A stretch of 64,000 nucleotides of DNA from Muriicola soli (lineage in GTDB: Bacteria; Bacteroidota; Bacteroidia; Flavobacteriales; Flavobacteriaceae): positions 1,426,001 to 1,490,000 of the forward strand of contig NZ_CP035544.1 of NCBI RefSeq assembly GCF_004139715.1. Reading direction: 5' to 3'. Numbering within the stretch: position 1 is the stretch's first letter; each line of letters opens with the position of its first letter. Shown in pieces: positions 1,186 through 11,975 of this stretch. The position numbers and the translations under genes are program-made. The notes under the pieces were generated by a model. That model did no database searches. It worked only from the letters and a program-made list of their open reading frames with translations, and was not told the origin of the DNA.

Positions 1186-2049
1186 ATGAGGCAACTTAAG
1201 ATAATCAAGCAGGTCACCAACAGAGAATCAAAATCCTTGGATAAGTACCTGCAGGATATCAGTAAAATAGATTTGATCACTGCCAATGAAGAAGTAGAGT
1301 TGGCCCAGCGAATCAGGGCAGGCGATCAACTGGCACTTGAGAAACTGACAAACGCCAATTTGAGGTTTGTGGTCTCGGTTGCTAAACAATACCAAAATCA
1401 GGGCCTTACGCTTCCCGATCTTATTAATGAAGGTAATGTGGGGCTGGTTAAGGCCGCCAAGCGATTTGATGAAACCCGTGGATTTAAGTTTATTTCCTAC
1501 GCGGTATGGTGGATCAGACAATCTATCCTTCAAGCTCTTGCAGAGCAATCGAGAGTTGTACGACTACCTTTAAACAAAATTGGATCCATAAATAAAATCA
1601 AAAAGGCTTTTTCCTACCTGGAGCAGGCACACGAAAGACCACCTTCTGCTGAAGAGATCGCTCAGGAACTCGAAATGACAGTTAGTGAGGTAAAACAGTC
1701 TATAAAGAATTCAGGAAGGCATGTATCAATGGATGCTCCATTAAAAGAGGGAGAAGATTCCAACCTTTACGATGTCATGCGTTCAGGCGAATCGCCTAAG
1801 CCAGACAAAGGCTTAATGCAGCAATCGCTTAATACGGAGATCAATCGTGCGCTGGACACTCTTTCTCCCCGTGAGGCAGATGTAGTTAAGTTGTATTACG
1901 GAATAGGAGATCAACAATCAATGACTCTGGCAGAGATAGGTCAGACCTTTGATCTTACCCGTGAGCGAGTTAGACAGATCAGGGAAAAGGCTATTCGCAA
2001 ACTACGACACAATACGCGTAGTAAGCTCCTCAAGGCCTATTTGGGATAA
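1186..2049 (+). CDS. rpoD: RNA polymerase primary sigma factor RpoD/SigA
   Basis: This is a 287-residue sigma-70 factor of the short Bacteroidota type, which lacks the long region 1.1 and the non-conserved region of E. coli RpoD. In order it has region 1.2 ([16 protein letters not shown]), region 2 with the core-binding and -10-recognition helices ([33 protein letters not shown]), region 3 ([12 protein letters not shown]), and region 4 with the -35-recognition helix-turn-helix ([18 protein letters not shown]). It directs core polymerase to housekeeping promoters. It is monocistronic, with its own terminator. The ATG at 1186 gives the expected family N-terminus (MRQLKI). Confidence 0.97.
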
Positions 2050-2064
2050 GCTTTATTGAGATAA

Positions 2065-2102
2065 AAAGAAAAAAGGAAGCCGCTTGGCTTCCTTTTTTCT
2101 TT
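2065..2102. terminator. bidirectional intrinsic terminator between rpoD and the micro-ORF operon
   Basis: A stem of at least 13 bp (GGAAGCC/GGCTTCC flanked by A and T runs) closes on a GCTT loop. The A-tract on the left and T-tract on the right allow termination in both directions. It can end rpoD (+) and the long minus-strand operon whose last ORF stops at 2127. Confidence 0.9.
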
Positions 2103-2126: not shown

Positions 2127-2228
2127 TTAAGAACAGCTTAGTCTGCTGATTTCGAAATCTTTCAGGATCTCGTTCAGATCCTCAATAAAGTTCAAATAAG
2201 CCGCGTTGTCATAATTTGGATTTGCCAT
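2127..2228 (-). CDS. micro-ORF A, 33 aa, paralogue of micro-ORF B
   Basis: The frame runs from ATG at 2228 to TAA at 2127 and encodes MANPNYDNAAYLNF followed by IEDLNEILKDFEISRLSCS. It is clearly related to micro-ORF B: both contain YLNF, then two residues, then DLNEIL. No signal peptide or membrane segment is visible. The pattern [NC]Fx[EK][DE]L[NE]EIL also occurs twice in the HEAT-repeat protein of the same operon, so I take it as coding. It is the last ORF before the bidirectional terminator and starts 31 bp after micro-ORF B. I know no named family for it. Expression is not shown. Confidence 0.6.
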   Translation of the reverse strand: MANPNYDNAAYLNFIEDLNEILKDFEISRLSCS

Positions 2229-2259
2229 AAGCTTTGGGATTTAAAGGTTCACCGATCAT

Positions 2260-2358
2260 CTAGAGATAATCCAGTTCTGCTAATTCATTAACACTCAGAA
2301 TTTCATTCAAGTCTTTGAGAAAATTTAAGTATTCCTCGCCGTAGGTATCATATAACAT
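2260..2358 (-). CDS. micro-ORF B, 32 aa, paralogue of micro-ORF A
   Basis: The frame runs from ATG at 2358 to TAG at 2260. The product begins MLYDTYGEEYLNF, continues LKDLNEILSVNE and ends LAELDYL. It is acidic and amphipathic, probably one helix, with no export signal. Similarity to micro-ORF A (YLNF..DLNEIL) is too strong for chance in two adjacent short frames. It lies 142 bp downstream of the yaiO-like gene on the same strand. The motif also matches residues about 403-425 and 473-500 of the HEAT protein. A docking or competitor peptide role is inference. Confidence 0.6.
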   Translation of the reverse strand: MLYDTYGEEYLNFLKDLNEILSVNELAELDYL

Positions 2359-2500
2359 GTCTGTTTGGTTTTTAGTGAGATCTGGGACTCAATGATTATG
2401 TACTAAAAATATTTTTTCTTCTCAAAAGCAACAACAGTTTGTGGTGTACTGGTAAATAATTGTTGTATATAACGCATTTTATGAGGTACTTATTGCGGTA

Positions 2501-3742
2501 TTAGAAGCCAATCTGGTATCTCAACCCGGCAGAAATGGCCCAAAAATAGTTTCCCGCAGCAAATACAAATTCCTGTCTTGTGATCCCCAAATGTGCCCTG
2601 TAAAGCGAGGGGTTGTCCTTAAATGAAAATTGATATTCAGCCATCAGCTGCTGTGATTCCACAAACAAGAGGGTTTCCGCAACCAGAGTGGTATTCGCCA
2701 AAAATTGCCTGAATTCAGGCATGAATCCCATCCCTGCATTTATTCCGATATAATTATTCGCATCTTTTAAATACTTCCTGGCTGTAAGTACGCCTGAAAT
2801 ACCCATTGTACTATTCTTTCTAGGGGTCACATATGGTCGTAGTGACAGGTAGTAATTCCCCTTGTACACTCCGGCCGAACCAGTAAAAATAGCCACATCA
2901 CTATCGGTAAAGGATAAGAATCGGGCTCCCAGAGAGGTTTCAAAGCCCTTGGGCAGGTTTACGTACAGATCTCCCCCAACCCTGTGTTCGGGATAGATCT
3001 CGGACTGACTGTAGCCATAATTTAAATAGGCGTAAACTTTTTTTGAAAATTGGGGATACAAATCTATTTCATACTGGGTTCCGTCAATTTGGAATCGGTT
3101 ACTATAATTGATCCTGGGAATAATTTTTCCATATTTAGTACCAAAATTGAATTCAACACCCGAGTAATACATCGGATCAAAAACCACATCGAATATATCA
3201 GCAGAACTAAAAATAGCAACGGAGTTACTGCGTTTATTGGTTTCCACCTCCTTTTCAGCCTCCAATTGAGATGTCTTTGAAGGTTCATTCCAGGAGTTTA
3301 TAATGCGATTCCTTAAAGAATCCAATTCTTTATCTCCGGGTAGGAAAAGAAGAGCTTTATTAGCCAAGCCAAGGGCCGTGGATCTGTTTAGTGCGAAAAT
3401 CTCGTTTCGGATTGCCGCAACCCAAACCTCCTTGTTTTTCCTTTCATCTGAGGTAATTCTGTTAAAATGCTTTCGGGCTTCATCGAAGTCACCGTCCCAA
3501 CTGTAGGTTTTTGCAATTAAATTCTTAACATCTGTATAGTCGGGATACTGATGTAAAATATTGTGAAGGGTATCCCTGGCTTCCTCCCTGCGACCATCAC
3601 TGGCAAGCGCCATTGCCCGTCGTAGCGAAAGGTCGGGGTCTCCGGAATACGCCATATCCTGAGCATTTAGATGGCTGGCGAAGCTTCCCAAGAGAATCAT
3701 TCCCATACAGATCCATATGATATGTCTCATGTTCTTATTCAT
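2501..3742 (-). CDS. YaiO-family outer-membrane beta-barrel protein with N-terminal TPR part
   Basis: A signal peptide (MRHIIWICMGMILLG..., cleaved near HLNAQ) is followed by about 120 residues of TPR-like helices (LRRAMALASDGRREEARDTL, then DFDEARKHF). A C-terminal beta-barrel of alternating aromatic strands follows and ends in the outer-membrane signature GLRYQIGF. Order and length fit the YaiO outer-membrane family, found beside exopolysaccharide glycosyltransferases (E. coli yaiO-yaiP). It probably exports or anchors the polymer made by the upstream glycosyltransferase. I chose ATG 3742 because it overlaps the preceding stop as ATGAATAA, a coupling arrangement; an in-frame ATG at 3757 is also possible. 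This is the last large gene of the operon. Confidence 0.85.
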   Translation of the reverse strand: MNKNMRHIIWICMGMILLGSFASHLNAQDMAYSGDPDLSLRRAMALASDGRREEARDTLHNILHQYPDYTDVKNLIAKTYSWDGDFDEARKHFNRITSDERKNKEVWVAAIRNEIFALNRSTALGLANKALLFLPGDKELDSLRNRIINSWNEPSKTSQLEAEKEVETNKRSNSVAIFSSADIFDVVFDPMYYSGVEFNFGTKYGKIIPRINYSNRFQIDGTQYEIDLYPQFSKKVYAYLNYGYSQSEIYPEHRVGGDLYVNLPKGFETSLGARFLSFTDSDVAIFTGSAGVYKGNYYLSLRPYVTPRKNSTMGISGVLTARKYLKDANNYIGINAGMGFMPEFRQFLANTTLVAETLLFVESQQLMAEYQFSFKDNPSLYRAHLGITRQEFVFAAGNYFWAISAGLRYQIGF

Positions 3743-6107
3743 AGCCGTCTTCTTCAAAATTCAGGTATCCGAGATTTTCACTGCTAAAAAGGGTCTGATC
3801 TTGTTTCATTTTGTCTTCAGCCCTTTTGATCTTCTCTGTTAGCTCCTCATTGCCAATTCTGTGTTTCCTAATCAGTTTCTTTAGCTCTGATGCCTTATAG
3901 TTAGTATCTGCCCAGAAATACACATCCAGCAAAGCAGAATATCCATCGGCGTAAACTGGGTATTTCTTAATGGCCTTTTCAAGTATTGAAGCGGCCCGGG
4001 TGTAATCCTGATTCCAGGCATAAATACGACCTTTTAGGATTTCCGTATCGGCATGACCCGGAACCTCTTTTAGGATATGGTCGCATAGAAGCAAAGCACG
4101 TTCTTTATCCCCTTCTATAGCCAGATCCCTGGCTGTTCTGTAAGCATTATCGTAGTCATCGCTGTTAAACACGCTGTTGATCCATACCATATCCGACTTA
4201 CTTTCCAGTGATGCTACCTGTTTTTGATCAGCTGAAACAGGGATCAGTTTGTCCTGCTCTGTCACGTATTGATTGATAGCCTTGAATTCCCTGAAAGCCG
4301 CCTTTAGATCTTCCTTCCTTTCAGTAGATTCAGGATCGTACAAACTGAGATCACCACCTATTTTATACAAGGAATTCCCCGAAATGCACAGGTTGCCTTT
4401 TATGAATTCCTGAATGTTCTTGCGGTGTCTGAAGAGTGGGATCTCTTTTTCCTCTTTAATATAACCCTTGTGCACCAGTCCTTCTCCCAGCCAGGCAACC
4501 TGTTCAGGCAACTCTGTTTTGTATGCAGTGTGGTATAATCCTGCCAACTCCGGTAAAATATCGCTGTGAGCTACCAATGAGCCTATTCGTGCCGGTGATT
4601 TTAACATCGGACTGTACATCATCAAGGGTACCCTGTAACGATCCAGGTAATCTGACTGTGGCAGATCACTTAAGTTATGACTGCCGGTTATGACAAAGAT
4701 GGTATTGTAGAATTCAGATTTTCGCTTGTACCCCTCTATAAAATCAGCAATGGCCTTATCTGCATAAATCAGACTGGAGAAGACTTCTTCATTTTTTTCA
4801 ATGAGTCTTTCACTACGTCCCTCATAGTGTTCTGAAGCCAGTATATCCTCAACGTCCATCTTATATTTTTCCTCATTGGGAATATGAAATGGGTTTTTAG
4901 TGCTTTGCGTAAGGAAGATATCTACCCTGGGGCCATCCGTACTCTGAAATTCATCCAACCACCTACCGAATAACTCGGAATCGGGATAACCAAGCGAAAT
5001 ACCGGCCGCATCGGGCTGTTGTTGTTTGTATTGAGGTCCGAATGCCTTCCGGTCTGACAGGTAATCGATCTCCTCCTCGTAAAGAAATTTTCCCAGATTG
5101 TTTAAGGAAGCATTGCCCCCAAAGTGAAAGGAGGAATAATATCCATTTTCTTTCAACAGATCAATTAGGGTGAATCGATGTGTATTTGTCTCGATGTTAG
5201 AAAACCCTTCTTCACCAAAGGGCAAGGAACCTAAAATAGTTGGGATACTTGCAGTTGATTCGCCAGTATTACTCAGATTATGAGGCCAATACAAGGATTT
5301 ATTGATTAAACCATTTAAGTAAGGCATAAACGCCTTATAGGTCGCATCTTCCCCTACAAAGTCAGATCCAACCCCATCCATAACTATAAAAACCAGATTG
5401 GGTTGTTGTGATTTAAGTTCGAAATAATCAGCTAGCTCCCCTGATGGATGAAACGATTTTAACAATGGGTATTCTGCCTGTCCCTCATATTTGTAGAAAT
5501 TCAAGGATTCTTCTGCGCGATGGTAAATCAGATGCTGTGTCTTATTTTCATTTACGGGATTTTTCCTGGTGATCAAGGTTGCCAGAAAAAGACTGAAAAG
5601 TACTATGGTAAATGGGTACATCCTGCTGATCAGATTATAAATGTTGGCGGTCATGCGAAAGAACACATACATAAAAACCACGCTGAGGAAAAGGAAGACC
5701 GGGCTGTAGTAAAGCAGAGACAAGCCCTTCTTTTCATTTATTTGTTCGGAAAAGCCTGCGCCTAAAATTTCGTAGTTGTCAACGTAATACTTGGTGAGTA
5801 AACCTTCAATCCCTAAAACGGCCACCAGAACTACAACTACCGTCTTAAATCCGAGGTTGGGTTGTATCCTCTCGAGAAATTTGTAAAGGAAGACCAGGAA
5901 TAAAGCTGTGAGAGAGGTGAAACCGAGATGATGGACAAGCAATAGCAGCAAGCTCTTATTGATCACACCATCGAGCACTCCTGCCCCATACAGCCTTGTA
6001 TTCTGGTAAAGTGACAGCACCCCCAGACACAGGAAAAATGCCAGGACAAGCCTGATAAAATCACGCAAGTCCCGTTTCTTGGCTCCTATGTTAATATCAG
6101 TCTGCAT
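3735..6107 (-). CDS. AlkP-superfamily (LTA-synthase/sulfatase-like) membrane protein with C-terminal TPRs
   Basis: The 790-residue protein has about five N-terminal membrane helices (residues about 15-190). A periplasmic alkaline-phosphatase-fold domain follows (LVFIVMDGVGSDF; nucleophile region NTGESTASIPTILGSLP; HSDILPELAGLYH). A TPR-like C-terminus starts near residue 660 (ERALLLCDHILKEVPGHADTEIL). The fold class transfers phospho-alcohols or cleaves sulfate/phosphate esters. Two positions usually carrying metal or substrate ligands look altered: the SxHxPF-type motif reads STKNPFHIP, and the usual D-H pair reads GSHN. Activity may therefore be changed or lost. It starts 2 bp after the glycosyltransferase stop and probably modifies or escorts the polysaccharide in the periplasm. 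Confidence 0.75.
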   Translation of the reverse strand: MQTDINIGAKKRDLRDFIRLVLAFFLCLGVLSLYQNTRLYGAGVLDGVINKSLLLLLVHHLGFTSLTALFLVFLYKFLERIQPNLGFKTVVVVLVAVLGIEGLLTKYYVDNYEILGAGFSEQINEKKGLSLLYYSPVFLFLSVVFMYVFFRMTANIYNLISRMYPFTIVLFSLFLATLITRKNPVNENKTQHLIYHRAEESLNFYKYEGQAEYPLLKSFHPSGELADYFELKSQQPNLVFIVMDGVGSDFVGEDATYKAFMPYLNGLINKSLYWPHNLSNTGESTASIPTILGSLPFGEEGFSNIETNTHRFTLIDLLKENGYYSSFHFGGNASLNNLGKFLYEEEIDYLSDRKAFGPQYKQQQPDAAGISLGYPDSELFGRWLDEFQSTDGPRVDIFLTQSTKNPFHIPNEEKYKMDVEDILASEHYEGRSERLIEKNEEVFSSLIYADKAIADFIEGYKRKSEFYNTIFVITGSHNLSDLPQSDYLDRYRVPLMMYSPMLKSPARIGSLVAHSDILPELAGLYHTAYKTELPEQVAWLGEGLVHKGYIKEEKEIPLFRHRKNIQEFIKGNLCISGNSLYKIGGDLSLYDPESTERKEDLKAAFREFKAINQYVTEQDKLIPVSADQKQVASLESKSDMVWINSVFNSDDYDNAYRTARDLAIEGDKERALLLCDHILKEVPGHADTEILKGRIYAWNQDYTRAASILEKAIKKYPVYADGYSALLDVYFWADTNYKASELKKLIRKHRIGNEELTEKIKRAEDKMKQDQTLFSSENLGYLNFEEDGYE

Positions 6108-6109
6108 CT

Positions 6110-7537
6110 TTACGCTTTAGCAAATCCTTTTCTGACCTGTGAACCCCACCCAGATCTAATTTTGAATAATTTTTTATAATTCCCCCGTACTGAAGACCAC
6201 ACAACAAGTGGATGAAAGATTAAGGGCTCCAGGATGGCTACTAACATGAGGGTTAGTATATCCTTAGTCTTTGAATATTGATTATATGAATAGATTTCCC
6301 AGAGGATCGCATAGAATGAGAACATGATTGAGAAAAGGTAAATTGTAATAGTAATTGCGATAAAGAAATCCCAGTTGATAATTCCGAGGTAGATAAAGAT
6401 GATCACTGCCAAGATCCCTACAAATTCGAGTAAAGGCGCCAGCCATTCATAAAAAAACCAATAAGGATAGCTCAACATGCCCAATCTCCCGTATTTTGGG
6501 TTAAAAAACATGTCTTTATGCGTATTCAGGGTTTCTAAATTTCCCCTGGACCAACGGTCTCGCTGATTTATAAAAATATTCAGGTCTTCGGGCACCTCTG
6601 TCCAGCAAAGCGGATCGGGGATATAGGCCACGTGATAGGGCTCATTCCTATCGTGCATAAATCGTCTCATCCTGAAGATGATCTCCATGTCCTCCCCTAC
6701 GGTCTCAGTATCATACCCCCCAACTGCCAAGGCGATCTCCCGGTCAAAAAATCCAAAGGCTCCTGATATGATTAACAGGCTGTCTATCCTGCCCCAGGCC
6801 ATTCTTCCCAAAAGAAAAGATCTGGTGTATTCCAGTAACTGAAATTTCGCCAACCAATTTTTTGGCAACCTGATCTCTTCCAGGGTCCCACCGGATATTT
6901 TACAGGAGTTGGCTACCCGGATTACACCACCTACGGCGATTACACGCTTATCAGAATGCTGATAGAACGATTTAACCACATGCAAAAGGGCTTCAGGAAC
7001 GATGAGACAGTCTACATCAATACACCCTACATATTTGTTTTCGGAGAGATAAATCCCTGCATTTAGGGCATCGGACTTTCCTCCATTGGCTTTATCAACC
7101 ACGGTTAGCTTGGCAAAGGATCGCTGCTCAGATTTGTAGATTCCGCGAATGGGCTTCGACTTAATATCAGGATCAATGTCTCTATCAATTTTTTTAAGAT
7201 CGTAAGCCTCGATTAGTTTTTGCAACGTATCGTCCTTACTTCCATCATTTACTACCATCACCTCATAATTTACATACTGCAGCGAGAGCAGGGACCTTAC
7301 GTTTTCAACGATTGTCAGCCCTTCATTGTAAGCGGGTGCTATTATGGTGATCCCCGGGGCTAAAGGAGATCCCAAGGTCTTTGATATATCCCCAAAACTG
7401 TTTTTGTGCTTGTAATGTATTGAATTACGAGTCGCTAGATAGGCCATGAGGATATACAGCGAAAACAATACCACTGAAAACACCAGGAAAACGATGTTCA
7501 GGTATTCTAGAATCACATTGAAAACGCTGTTATCCAT
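6110..7537 (-). CDS. processive family-2 glycosyltransferase (polysaccharide synthase)
   Basis: The 475-residue inner-membrane enzyme has one N-terminal membrane helix (about 12-33), then a cytoplasmic GT-A domain and about four C-terminal helices (about 355-450). Visible catalytic motifs are ITIIAPAYNEG (nucleotide binding), VVNDGSKDDT, the DxD motif in CIDVDCLIV, the TVGEDMEI acceptor motif, and the QxxRW motif as QRDRWSRG. That set defines BcsA/HasA/PgaC-like processive synthases. There is no PilZ domain, so direct c-di-GMP control through this protein is not suggested. It lies 2 bp after the HEAT gene and 2 bp before the AlkP-like gene. Which sugar is polymerised cannot be read from the sequence. 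Confidence 0.9.
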   Translation of the reverse strand: MDNSVFNVILEYLNIVFLVFSVVLFSLYILMAYLATRNSIHYKHKNSFGDISKTLGSPLAPGITIIAPAYNEGLTIVENVRSLLSLQYVNYEVMVVNDGSKDDTLQKLIEAYDLKKIDRDIDPDIKSKPIRGIYKSEQRSFAKLTVVDKANGGKSDALNAGIYLSENKYVGCIDVDCLIVPEALLHVVKSFYQHSDKRVIAVGGVIRVANSCKISGGTLEEIRLPKNWLAKFQLLEYTRSFLLGRMAWGRIDSLLIISGAFGFFDREIALAVGGYDTETVGEDMEIIFRMRRFMHDRNEPYHVAYIPDPLCWTEVPEDLNIFINQRDRWSRGNLETLNTHKDMFFNPKYGRLGMLSYPYWFFYEWLAPLLEFVGILAVIIFIYLGIINWDFFIAITITIYLFSIMFSFYAILWEIYSYNQYSKTKDILTLMLVAILEPLIFHPLVVWSSVRGNYKKLFKIRSGWGSQVRKGFAKA

Positions 7538-7539
7538 AC

Positions 7540-9705
7540 TTATTTTCTTGTCTTTTTGGAATCAGAACCATTTAACGTCAGATCAAAGTTCAGCAGTGTA
7601 ATGAGCTCTGAATTCTTCTCCCACTTCACCAGACTCTCCGTTTCCACTTCTTTTGTGCTCTCTTTCCTGAGTTTTTCACTTAGCATAGCTGCCGTTCTCT
7701 TAGCCTTATCCCGCACCTTCCCACTGGGGTCTTTATAAAGTGATTTTAAGAAAGCAAGTTCCTTCTGATCTCCCAGGTCAAGAATTTCATTCATCAGGAT
7801 CAGTTTCGATTCCACATCGCAGCTTCGGAATAATTCTTCGAATATGCTGAAACCATATGTGGCCTTTTCATTGATTGCTGCTTTATGCTGAGAATCAGAA
7901 TTATCGTCCAATTCTTCCAGGGTATCCTCTTTGTTCAATTCGCCCCTGCCAATCTCAATGTCCTCCCAATCAACCATAGCACATGCGTCGAGGTCCTCTT
8001 CTTCAGATTCAGGTTGACCTATATCCGCATTTTTTGTCGCTTCAGACTTACCATTTTCTTCAGGAAGGACAATTTCGACTCCGTCAACCTTCAATTCATT
8101 GATCTGCTGCAAAAGCTTGGGCAGGTTTTGGCTTTCTAAATTTTCGTCTATGACAAAGGGTAGAAAGTTGAAGTTGAGATATTCGGTTTCCATATTTCCA
8201 TCAATATCCGGCACTTCTACCCTGCTTAGAATCTCCTCCAGTTCTTTTCTGAAGTTTTCATCCGGATGAACTTCCTCATAGGAAACATTGAGCTTCCTGA
8301 GCTTTCTTTTCCATTTCTTTTTAGGTTTTTTCTTATCCATGGCGGTTGGTTTTTCTATAACGACAGGTAAAAAGTCGAGTGGCAGATATTTTACTTCCAG
8401 ATTATCATCCTCAATTTGTTGTTGATCTAGTATCTCGTTGAGCTCTTCCATAAAACAGTAGTCGAATACGTCTAAATCTTCGTAAAAGAGCTCACTGCTT
8501 TCTTCTGTGATCTCGATGTTATCTTCTATTGTTTCTGTGGGCGATTCGTTTAATTCCCTTTCTGCGCTTTCCTCGGAAACGGACTGCTCCTCATCCTCCA
8601 GCTCCACAGCCTCATCGGAAACCTGAATAAGCGGATCAAGATTATCTTGTGGGAGAACCGTTTCGGGGGAAATGGAATTAATGGCACCTAAAGCCTTACT
8701 CTTTACATTAAAATTTGAGATTTTTTGATGCACTTCGAGTAAAAAGGGGATTTGCTCTTCTCCTCCGATTGCACCTAAAGCATCCAGAATAAAAATTCGG
8801 GTATCTCTCTTAGCCCTTTTAAATGAGGCCATTAAGGTTGGGATGGCTTCGGTGATTCCAAACTCCTTAATACACTCGATGGCAGCCTGTTTTACTTCTT
8901 CATTTTTGTGTTTCAGGAGCTCTGTAACAGAGGCATTGGCATCCGTTTGATTGTAATGCCTGATCAGTCTTAGCGCAAATAAGACGACATCTTTATTTTT
9001 GGAAGTGAGCCAAATCCCAAAGCTAGGGGGTAGATAATCTTCTTTGTTGCGAAGTATTTCTAGTATTTTAATTTGCTGCCATTCGGATATCGGGTACTTG
9101 TTAGTATCCAGAAATTGTCCGATACCTTCGTGTTTTAGGGAAACTGTTGCAATCTGGGCATGTCTTCGGATGACACTTCGCTTGTGATTTATAAATTTTT
9201 TGATCTGGGTATAGGCTTCTTCTACCTCCATTTGTGTTAATTCCACAATCCCTTTGGTAACAATCTCCCAACGCCAGCTGTTGAGCTTTGCAAAAGCATC
9301 CAGGTGCAAGTCAAAATCCTTGTACAGTACAAATAGCCTTTGCCTGGCATCACCTGTGAGATCGCGCTGCAGGTCTAAAAGAATTTCTTTCAGAATACTT
9401 CTGTTAATGGGGTCCTTGATAAACTCCCTAACTTCAACCTTTAGCTCTACGTATTCGTATTTTTCTTCTTTACTTGCATCTTCCCCGTAGAAGAGGAAAT
9501 TACTTATAATGGGTGTGAGCTGCTTCCTTCTCTCACTGATGTTCCGCGTTTTTGCAGAGAGCCTGTTCCGGAAAAAAAAGATAAAACCAAAATAGAGGAT
9601 ACACAGACTTCCTAACAAGACACTAAGATCCCACAAAAGATCCGTGTGGATCTCTGGAATACTCAATAGTGAGTAAATTCTATATGTTAGTTCTGCTTTA
9701 AACAA
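7540..9705 (-). CDS. membrane-anchored HEAT-repeat protein with two copies of an acidic docking-like motif
   Basis: The 721-residue protein has one membrane helix (about 24-46), then HEAT-like helical repeats (about 80-370; for example SVTELLKHKNEEVKQAAIECIKEF in outline). An acidic linker carries two related segments near residues 403-452 and 473-521 (FMEELNEIL...PLDFLPVVI and FRKELEEIL...NFNFLPFVI). A further HEAT-like unit lies near the C-terminus (KVRDKAKRTAAML). The start is TTG at 9705, 3 bp after the receiver-gene stop; no ATG is nearby. Lying between a receiver protein and the synthase, it is a plausible scaffold passing the phosphorelay signal to the glycosyltransferase. The two segments also resemble the micro-ORF products at the operon end. 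Confidence 0.75.
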   Translation of the reverse strand: MFKAELTYRIYSLLSIPEIHTDLLWDLSVLLGSLCILYFGFIFFFRNRLSAKTRNISERRKQLTPIISNFLFYGEDASKEEKYEYVELKVEVREFIKDPINRSILKEILLDLQRDLTGDARQRLFVLYKDFDLHLDAFAKLNSWRWEIVTKGIVELTQMEVEEAYTQIKKFINHKRSVIRRHAQIATVSLKHEGIGQFLDTNKYPISEWQQIKILEILRNKEDYLPPSFGIWLTSKNKDVVLFALRLIRHYNQTDANASVTELLKHKNEEVKQAAIECIKEFGITEAIPTLMASFKRAKRDTRIFILDALGAIGGEEQIPFLLEVHQKISNFNVKSKALGAINSISPETVLPQDNLDPLIQVSDEAVELEDEEQSVSEESAERELNESPTETIEDNIEITEESSELFYEDLDVFDYCFMEELNEILDQQQIEDDNLEVKYLPLDFLPVVIEKPTAMDKKKPKKKWKRKLRKLNVSYEEVHPDENFRKELEEILSRVEVPDIDGNMETEYLNFNFLPFVIDENLESQNLPKLLQQINELKVDGVEIVLPEENGKSEATKNADIGQPESEEEDLDACAMVDWEDIEIGRGELNKEDTLEELDDNSDSQHKAAINEKATYGFSIFEELFRSCDVESKLILMNEILDLGDQKELAFLKSLYKDPSGKVRDKAKRTAAMLSEKLRKESTKEVETESLVKWEKNSELITLLNFDLTLNGSDSKKTRK

Positions 9706-9708
9706 TAA

Positions 9709-10074
9709 TTAGATTTTGCTTAATTCACGGGTTACTCTCACCAGAAGTTCGGAAGGACTAACAGGCTTTGCTATAAAGTCGTTAGCGCCTAACTCAAAAG
9801 CCGAGAGAACATTCTCTTCGTTTCCTGCACTTGAGATAATAATGATGGGTACCTTAGATTGCAGGGTGTTCCTAACGTAGTCTACCAGTTCAAGACCTGA
9901 GAAATAGGGCATCATAATGTCACTCACTATGATATCTGGTATTTCTTTTTCGAGTTCTTCTTTGACTTCCCTGCCATCGCAGGACCAATGCACCTTAAAA
10001 CCGGCCTTATCCAACCTGTAATTCAGGAGCGAAGCCAGTAATTCGTCATCATCTGCAAGTAAAATACGTTTCAT
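9709..10074 (-). CDS. receiver-only response regulator (CheY-like)
   Basis: The 121-residue protein is a single receiver domain. The acidic pocket is in LLADDDE, the phospho-acceptor Asp is in IIVSDIMMPYFSG, the switch Ser is in IIIISSAG, and the conserved Lys is in DFIAKPVSPSEL. No DNA-binding or enzymatic output domain is present, so it must act by protein contact. It lies 7 bp after the hybrid kinase, which ends in an Hpt domain able to phosphorylate it, and 3 bp before the HEAT gene, a likely partner. Confidence 0.93.
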   Translation of the reverse strand: MKRILLADDDELLASLLNYRLDKAGFKVHWSCDGREVKEELEKEIPDIIVSDIMMPYFSGLELVDYVRNTLQSKVPIIIISSAGNEENVLSAFELGANDFIAKPVSPSELLVRVTRELSKI

Positions 10075-10081
10075 AAGCCGC

Positions 10082-11890
10082 TTATTTATTTTCCTTTTTC
10101 AATCGGGTCATTTCCTTGTCCAGGGCAAATTCTACCATGGGATATTCTTTAATAAACTGTTCGTACAGGTACTGCATTTGGTCGTGATTCTTGTCTGTCT
10201 TGCAGTGTTCCTGAATCTGTTGCACCAGGATAAGCAGGTTTGCTGCCTGAACCATGGCGAGACCTGATTTCAGTTTATGTGCAACAAATTGCAACTGTTC
10301 ATAATCCTTGTTTTTTAGATGCATCCTGGCCTTTCCAATAAATTCCAGGACATTACCCTTAAAAAGATTCAGTAATTCCTCAAGCATATCTACTTCACCC
10401 ATACAGTCCTCCAGCATCCCGCTTAGGTCTATGGACATTCCCGCTTCTAGCTTTTTTTGAACTTCTCCCAGATCTGCGTTTTTTTTCTGCAGGGCATTCT
10501 CCTGTTCATTTGAAAATCCGTATTGGATAAGTTTCTCCATTAACTCTTCAGGGGTATAGGGCTTTAGGATGTAGTCATTGATCCCTTTACTTGCGGCCTT
10601 CTCTTTGTCGTTGACCGAGAAGTCGGCTGTTAAAGCAATCACCGGTACTTTTGAAATCCTCGGATGATCTGATGCCCTTATCATTTGTGTGATTTCATAG
10701 CCGTCCATAACCGGCATATGCAAATCCATTAAGACGAGATGAATATTTTCTTCCTCCAGTATTTTTAAGCCTGTTTCAGCGTGCTCTGTGACGAAGAACG
10801 TACAGCCCCATTCCTTAAGGCGTTTTTTTATCAACCATTGATTCAGCGGGTTGTCCTCGAAGACGAGAACAGTTAAAGCTTCAACATCTGCAGGACTTGC
10901 ATTGGAGCTCTTTTTCATCTTTGTTTTTTCCTCTTTCCCCACCTCATATTCGAGCTGCATGTGAAATGTAGTTCCTTTGTTTACTTTACTTTCTACGGTA
11001 ATGTCCCCTCCCAGCCTGTTAACGATTTGCTTTACTATGCTCAATCCGAGACCCGTACCACCATACTTCGAAAATGTATGCTGTCTGGCCCTTTTAAAGG
11101 CATCGAAAATATGGAGTAAGTCTTCTTCGGAAATGCCGATACCCGTATCCGAGATATAGAATTCAATCCCGACTCTGTTAACATTCGTTGTCTTTAATTT
11201 TGCGTCAAGGATAACTTTTCCCTCATCGGCAAATTTTATCGCGTTGCCCAGCAGATTGAGTAAGACCTGACTAAGCTTTGAAGGGTCTCCCAATAAAAAT
11301 TGTGGAATTTCTGGATCAATTTTTACCTCAAAAGCAATTTTCTTGTCCACAATTAGGGTCTCACAGAGGTAAGACACTTCTCTGATAAGGTTGTGAAAAT
11401 TGAAAGGGACCTTTTTAAATTCTTCCCGCCCTGCTTCCAGCTTGGAATATTCCAGCAATTCGTTGATGATCTCCATCAGGGAATTTGAAGCCTTCAGAAT
11501 AGCATTTACTTGCTCTTTCTGAGATTCATCGAGTTTCCCTTCTATCAACAGATCTGCGAAGCCAATAATTCCATTGAGGGGCGTTCGAATCTCATGACTA
11601 ACTTTTGCAATAAGTGACGATTCTTCCTTTTCGTTCTTTGTAGAGGCCACGTCCTGTTCCTCGGCGGGTTTAGAATTCTCCTCAACTATGGGATTGAATC
11701 CCCAGATTTTGGCTTCTAATTCGTTTTTAAAAAGATCGAAAGACCGTTTTAGTCTTGCTGCCTCAGCGGTACTGAGTTCCTCGAAAGAAAAATTGTGGAG
11801 GGCCGATTCCAGATCGGTGATTTGAGTAAGTAGGTTTTTAGATTTCAAGCCTGGGGTTTTGGGGTGTATATACCAGACTAAAATCCCCAT
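10082..11890 (-). CDS. soluble hybrid histidine kinase (HisKA-HATPase-REC-Hpt)
   Basis: About 602 residues from ATG 11890; a TTG at 11908 would add six residues. No membrane segment is seen, so it is cytoplasmic. In order: a short helical N-terminus, HisKA with phospho-accepting His in VSHEIRTPLNGIIGF, HATPase with N-box NLLGNAIKFAD and DTGIGI / GGTGLGLSI, a receiver with LVLMDLHMPVMDGYE, and a C-terminal Hpt with AHKLKSGLAMV. A full His-Asp-His relay is therefore built in, with the adjacent receiver-only protein as the natural final acceptor. No sensory domain is evident. It heads the exopolysaccharide operon and presumably controls it after translation. Confidence 0.93.
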   Translation of the reverse strand: MGILVWYIHPKTPGLKSKNLLTQITDLESALHNFSFEELSTAEAARLKRSFDLFKNELEAKIWGFNPIVEENSKPAEEQDVASTKNEKEESSLIAKVSHEIRTPLNGIIGFADLLIEGKLDESQKEQVNAILKASNSLMEIINELLEYSKLEAGREEFKKVPFNFHNLIREVSYLCETLIVDKKIAFEVKIDPEIPQFLLGDPSKLSQVLLNLLGNAIKFADEGKVILDAKLKTTNVNRVGIEFYISDTGIGISEEDLLHIFDAFKRARQHTFSKYGGTGLGLSIVKQIVNRLGGDITVESKVNKGTTFHMQLEYEVGKEEKTKMKKSSNASPADVEALTVLVFEDNPLNQWLIKKRLKEWGCTFFVTEHAETGLKILEEENIHLVLMDLHMPVMDGYEITQMIRASDHPRISKVPVIALTADFSVNDKEKAASKGINDYILKPYTPEELMEKLIQYGFSNEQENALQKKNADLGEVQKKLEAGMSIDLSGMLEDCMGEVDMLEELLNLFKGNVLEFIGKARMHLKNKDYEQLQFVAHKLKSGLAMVQAANLLILVQQIQEHCKTDKNHDQMQYLYEQFIKEYPMVEFALDKEMTRLKKENK

Positions 11891-11975
11891 AAAATCAAGG
11901 GATGACAATTAAATGTTACCTAGACTGTAGAATGTGTTGTCAAATTGCTTTATTTGTAGGTCTAATTTTTACAAT

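Follow-up and report, generated by a model that had tools for sequence, protein, structure and literature searches.

Tandem micro-protein genes of Flavobacteriaceae that appear to share a control element with an adjacent histidine kinase and polymer operon

Very small proteins that are encoded with a two-component system or are under joint control with it include Sda, a 46-residue helical hairpin acting on the kinase core, and MgrB, which is a membrane protein. Small ORFs beside a GT2 polymer operon are likewise familiar from the bacterial cellulose operons, as exemplified by BcsR and BcsF, and the PgaC/IcaA systems offer a comparison at the level of the poly-GlcNAc synthase. Proteins of such short length commonly escape annotation. 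Here, a pair of this kind is described from a 64,000-nucleotide stretch of Muriicola soli DNA (the window), which belongs to a genome of 3.07 Mb in one contig.

The minus strand of the window carries an operon that runs from a hybrid histidine kinase with HisKA, HATPase, REC and Hpt domains (10082..11908) through a stand-alone receiver domain protein (9709..10074), a HEAT protein (7540..9705) and a PgaC/IcaA-like GT2 glycosyltransferase (6110..7537) to a sulfatase-fold protein with a TPR-like C-terminal part (3735..6107) and a TPR protein with a YaiO outer-membrane barrel (2501..3757). The HEAT protein comprises an N-terminal HEAT domain (HEAT-N, ~60-345), a disordered linker (~350-615) and a C-terminal HEAT domain (HEAT-C, ~620-690). 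Past the YaiO end of the operon lie uB, then uA and then a convergent RpoD-type sigma factor on the plus strand (1186..2049), which is a conserved neighbour. The original prediction had announced two tandem ORFs of 33 and 32 codons, and these are confirmed on the minus strand: uA, its ORF A, at 2127..2228 (33 codons, MANPNYDNAAYLNFIEDLNEILKDFEISRLSCS) and uB, its ORF B, at 2260..2358 (32 codons, MLYDTYGEEYLNFLKDLNEILSVNELAELDYL), of which uA is a paralogue. The inverted repeat GGAAGCC-GCTT-GGCTTCC (2075..2092), which lies between uA and the sigma gene and is flanked by runs of A and T, is likely a bidirectional terminator that separates the two; it is absent from the list of one window scan and was seen in the sequence itself. 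The C-terminus of the sulfatase protein (3735-3780), ...GYLNFEEDGYE, resembles the YLNF of the micro-proteins.

The substitution pattern of both ORFs is that of genes. pN/pS within the genus is 0-0.04 for uA and uB, with synonymous sites largely changed and with 0-1 (uA) or 0-2 (uB) non-synonymous differences from the window, while over all pairs it amounts to 0.135 for uA and 0.091 for uB, with synonymous sites near saturation. At the non-reduced loci the ratio is 0.11 for uB (82 distinct sequences) and 0.26 for uA (66 distinct sequences, the regular expression for uA having missed 14 loci that do have it), and selection is as strong at the reduced loci described below (uB 0.10, n=22; uA 0.26, n=17). 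uB measures 32 codons throughout the first set of 51 loci and in 129 of the 131 loci with a complete uB; in two uncultured Eudoraea loci, where the usual stop is missing, it reaches 40 codons (L120) and 33 codons (L123). uA stands after uB in 126 of 132 loci, the six exceptions being L090-L094, where uA is absent, and L167, which is ended by a contig edge. Gene order and place are constant in the fetched loci, with a gap between YaiO and uB of 0.5 kb in L042 and 1.8 kb in L041. Chance ORFs were considered and ruled out by pN/pS and by the occurrence across relatives. By comparison of sequences, uB and uA look like tandem, unannotated micro-protein genes under strong purifying selection.

That uB and uA are not proteins, their conservation being that of an RNA or DNA site, is hardly credible. 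At the DNA level uB varies unusually little in its first codons, and a hairpin lies 3' of uA, but synonymous changes are near saturation, the codon number is near-fixed, and Rfam gave no match at gathering score, its 18 weak matches all falling over the terminator hairpin. The uniform codons of uB are 3, 5 and 6, where TAC, ACC and TAC are favoured among 106 distinct sequences; perhaps they serve translation initiation.

Neither peptide matched any family of Pfam or NCBIfam at E 0.01. The predicted structure of uB is a single helix (pLDDT 75), and both peptides are acidic (net charges -7 and -4). On reading the sequences no long hydrophobic run was found in either, such as a transmembrane protein of the MgrB type would show. 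Taken whole, neither uB nor uA has an unusual helical moment; the core of uA is clearly amphipathic (99 of 5000 shuffles as high) and that of uB weakly so (402 of 5000). A leader or attenuator peptide does not fit the arrangement, the next gene after uA in the fetched loci being the convergent sigma factor.

Among the 60 genomes searched first, strong matches to uA were obtained in 6 of 8 other genomes of the genus and in four further genera; the two same-genus genomes with no uA match are 80% and 68% complete. The search of other flavobacterial genomes proposed with the original prediction returned the micro-protein family at E 1e-8 or better in 73 of 397 family genomes, with at least two matches in 70 of the 73; at E 0.05 there are matches in 93 of the 397, those beyond the 73 being weak. 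Outside Flavobacteriaceae, an order-wide search of 296 genomes gave no convincing match. In the GTDB collection a uB relative is encoded in 243 stretches, and the 80 matches listed are mostly from Flavobacteriaceae, e.g., Maribacter, Eudoraea, Robiginitalea, Allomuricauda and Arenibacter. As for literature, no paper on the pair was found, and both peptide strings occur in none of the open-licence papers covered.

Strong matches to HEAT-N (E 1e-78 or better) are present in 63 of the 397 genomes, and both micro-proteins occur in all 63. The original prediction had named the absence of the micro-ORFs, or equal rates of synonymous and non-synonymous change, in relatives that keep the operon as what would speak against it; neither was observed, given this co-occurrence and the within-genus pN/pS of 0-0.04. 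Weaker HEAT-N matches, mostly to a short HEAT gene, were obtained in 53 genomes, 49 of which have no micro-proteins; the exceptions are G242 and G402, with the pair, and G029 and G280, with a weak single uB. L209 and L210 (in G286 and G029) represent a paralogous type of operon, in which the HEAT gene is short (~340-360 aa) and the GT2 is 44-47% identical to that of the window; the stretch contains no micro-protein pair. In L203-L205, a Flavobacterium protein of ~360 aa has a weakly uB-like stretch near its end, e.g., LMTYDTHGDNYLFFVANKNEV (E 0.02-0.04), which was judged a chance match and dropped.

Upstream of uB, ~95-139 nt ahead of the gene, sits a bipartite element, ACAACA-N18-ACANTTNNTTG (likewise given as ACAACA-N18-ACATTTAATTG), and the start of the kinase operon carries an element of identical type with equal 18-nt spacing. 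In 16 whole genomes 31 exact matches were found, 30 of them at the promoter of uB or of the kinase operon, against 2 for the reversed control; in 2.27 Mb, the reversed element gave no matches. Of 112 distinct uB upstream regions, 59 contain the element exactly and 99 within two mismatches, as compared with ~0.2% of shuffles, and the remaining 13 show 3-5 mismatches, including the regions of L181, L108, L185 and L157, which belong to the Muricauda-type loci treated below. In the window, the copy 5' of uB (2432..2466, minus strand), ACAACA-N18-ACAAACTGTTG, differs from the consensus at two positions, and the copy at the kinase operon start (11906..11940, minus strand) is exact. With one mismatch allowed, the window's genome holds 5 sites vs 4 in the control; therefore, the exact operon site is the sole informative one in this genome. 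The exact copy runs into the opening codons of the kinase ORF as listed, so that the true kinase start probably lies downstream of the listed one, perhaps at the TTG at 11848. Adjoining the kinase-side element, the segment ACCTACAAATAAAGC (11947-11961) is very conserved between the kinase and the divergent dipeptidase, and perhaps belongs to the dipeptidase promoter.

A TAnnTT[TC] box follows the element by 20 nt at 58 of the 59 exact uB sites and by 21 nt at the remaining one (shuffles 8%); in the window it is represented by TATTTTTA (2404..2411, minus strand), 20 nt past the TTG of the uB-side element. This box resembles TAnnTTTG, the -7 box of flavobacteria (PMC9723704). On the kinase side the box is found in 0 of 53 cases, with a GAnTTTTA consensus at equal distance instead. 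Element and box make up a promoter-like region of uB-uA's own, which shares its element with the adjacent HK-RR-HEAT-GT2-sulfatase-YaiO operon. The original prediction had counted four motif copies in one operon: the copies are present, but their belonging to one operon has become doubtful in view of this separate promoter-like region.

Of the motif behind that count, the two HEAT copies, FMEELNEIL (8428-8454) and FRKELEEIL (8227-8253, minus strand), are present with the Y[DE] spacing as described. In a genome-wide search with a micro-protein profile, uA scored E 5e-21, uB 1e-17 and the HEAT segment 8413-8454 (motif 1, FMEELNEILDQQQI, minus strand) 0.03, the next match being at 5.2; apart from the micro-proteins themselves, nothing in the genome matches better than FMEELNEIL, which ranks third overall. 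FRKELEEIL gave no match in the same search even at E 10. The resemblance between HEAT and micro-protein sequences exceeds chance. In the AlphaFold2 model, motif 1 lies inside a helix (401-432; pLDDT 72-77 over 411-430) within the disordered linker. An initial, narrow regular expression had limited the motif to Muriicola HEAT proteins; this was withdrawn, as a wider alignment and a micro-core PSSM show it in more lineages. With the PSSM, 14 of 77 HEAT linkers reach the 99th percentile of shuffles, where 0.8 would be expected, and the same matrix on other proteins gave 0/60 for HK, 0/70 for RR, 0/83 for GT2, 0/80 for sulfatase, 3/85 for YaiO, 0/95 for the sigma factor and 0/61 for the dipeptidase. 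None of the 77 linkers outscores the single best of 1540 shuffles, and the 14 are not independent, because 13 of them represent one orthologous site. A regular expression of the type F-[DENS]-x-C-h-x-[EQ]-x-[LF]-xx-IL, drawn from the HEAT alignment itself, matches 22 of the 77 distinct linkers and no shuffles; the other 55 do not match, although uB is nearly unchanged there. Judged from these alignments, the resemblance is genuine in Muriicola and Eudoraea, and in some lineages besides. The disordered linkers are also enriched, far over shuffles, in further short motifs (FLPxV-type in 57 of 77, LxVxYEE-type in 20 of 77).

The original prediction held that the micro-proteins compete with HEAT segments, or imitate them, for a common partner such as the receiver or the synthase, tuning polymer output. 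The rank of motif 1 in the genome, the related motif in 22 of 77 linkers and the control element common to the pair and the operon would agree with such competition, which is nonetheless quite improbable: a mimic of this kind would be expected wherever micro-proteins and HEAT protein co-occur, and 55 of 77 linkers are without the motif, while the pair is kept without synthase, receiver or HEAT-N. As a general account, competition with HEAT segments fails on those 55 linkers, and tuning of the synthase fails on the loci that keep the pair although synthase, sulfatase, YaiO, receiver and HEAT N-domain are absent. In the Muriicola-Eudoraea lineages, the pair and the HEAT linker may have a common partner.

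The loci that lost the polymer machinery are informative as to what the pair travels with. Ten of the 73 micro-bearing genomes have no strong HEAT-N match. A genome-wide search for a GT2 orthologue at E 1e-5 covered seven of these ten and found none in all seven; in the other three, G255, G259 and G402, no GT2 was found in the 18-kb stretches, and G402 has a GT2 beside a short-HEAT gene elsewhere. Pfam PF13641 was tried as a test of GT2 loss and set aside as uninformative, since it matches 10 of 10 genomes and 14 of 14 controls. On a tree of sigma factor and dipeptidase, built from the 53 loci with both markers, the 19 loci without a GT2 in the stretch (scored there and not over the genome) need at least four separate changes, which are read as losses.

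No kinase core, receiver, HEAT-N, GT2, sulfatase or YaiO was found in 15 Muricauda-type loci, 13 of which cluster as a single group in the tree. These loci retain the kinase N-terminus with Hpt together with uB-uA, and some also keep HEAT-C (L152, L157, L177, L187 and L207 by tblastn; L108 as a short ORF, by reading). Among 109 Hpt-matching loci, some of which come from one same genome, the phospho-accepting histidine is replaced by glutamine in 16, namely all 15 of the Muricauda type (e.g., L108, L134, L139, L152, L181 and L207) and L071, and by another residue in L206, L088 and L094; it is kept in 90. On the evidence of these sequences, the pair survives the loss of the synthase and, in the Muricauda-type loci, stays next to no more than the kinase N-terminus, an Hpt lacking the His and sometimes HEAT-C.

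Further reduction is seen at L208, where only the pair and the element lie between the dipeptidase and the sigma gene, with no kinase or HEAT remnant; its genome carries a short-HEAT gene and a GT2 elsewhere. Of the five loci with uB and no uA, L094 retains a kinase, and in L090-L093 neither operon parts nor the sigma gene were found within 18 kb; two of these four genomes have a paralogous GT2 elsewhere and two have none. L208 and the single-uB loci indicate that a partner outside the module may exist. One reading is that uB and uA act with such an outside partner and that co-regulation with the kinase operon is secondary. It is favoured by L090-L093, which retain uB alone and at a distance from kinase and sigma gene, and by the identity of uB to the window, which is higher in the fetched relatives than the identity of any operon protein, but the family occurs in only 73 of 397 genomes and is absent in 49 of the 53 weak-HEAT genomes, which hardly suits a general function, and the dedicated element also argues against it, leaving this reading unlikely. 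Of comparably low probability is the proposal that uB and uA are peptides that feed back on whichever regulator reads the shared element, rather than on any operon product. The joint persistence of pair and element in L208, without kinase or HEAT remnant, and the near confinement of the element to two promoters are consistent with it; the regulator, however, remains a postulate, and the single-uB loci have no recognisable element (4-5 mismatches).

The preferred reading, to which about an even chance is given, is that uB and uA constitute a new micro-protein family, co-regulated with the kinase module and probably made up of small helical binding partners. Both would be translated, and one factor would read the uB-side and the kinase-side promoters. 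The peptides would then act in the cytoplasm as helical binding partners, as adaptor or inhibitor, and their target would lie in the kinase/Hpt/HEAT-C part and not in the polymer machine; where a lineage has IFDxCFMEELxDIL in its HEAT linker, the helix formed there may use the same docking site. A bolder version, put forward tentatively and with more doubt than belief, would make uB and uA the essential output of a phosphorylation-independent module, in which the His-less Hpt-kinase N-terminus, in some cases HEAT-C, and the pair form a stripped-down switch under one dedicated regulator, with kinase core, receiver and polymer machine as optional outer layers.

Many genera keep the pair at near-fixed length, and its control element is nearly confined to two promoters per genome. 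Pair and element therefore provide direct access to a two-component/polymer system that marine flavobacteria possess and for which no paper was found; the natural reduced loci reveal which parts the pair travels with, and owing to the lost Hpt histidine a role that does not depend on phosphorylation can be put to a direct test.

Set against the systems named at the outset, uB and uA resemble Sda and MgrB as very small proteins associated with a two-component system, but they differ in having 32-33 residues, in being acidic without a long hydrophobic run, and in persisting where the kinase core is lost, as in the Muricauda-type loci. The missing core speaks against Sda-like inhibition, in which the kinase core is bound and its autophosphorylation blocked, as their sole role, as far as gene content indicates. 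The likeness to BcsR and BcsF lies in the position of small ORFs beside a GT2 polymer operon; unlike these, uB and uA have their own promoter-like region and survive the loss of GT2. With the PgaC/IcaA poly-GlcNAc synthase systems the likeness concerns the neighbouring operon only: its GT2 scores best with TIGR03937, but at 137.2 bits vs a cut-off of 422.3 it falls outside that family, and the operon adds a kinase, a receiver and a HEAT protein to the synthase.
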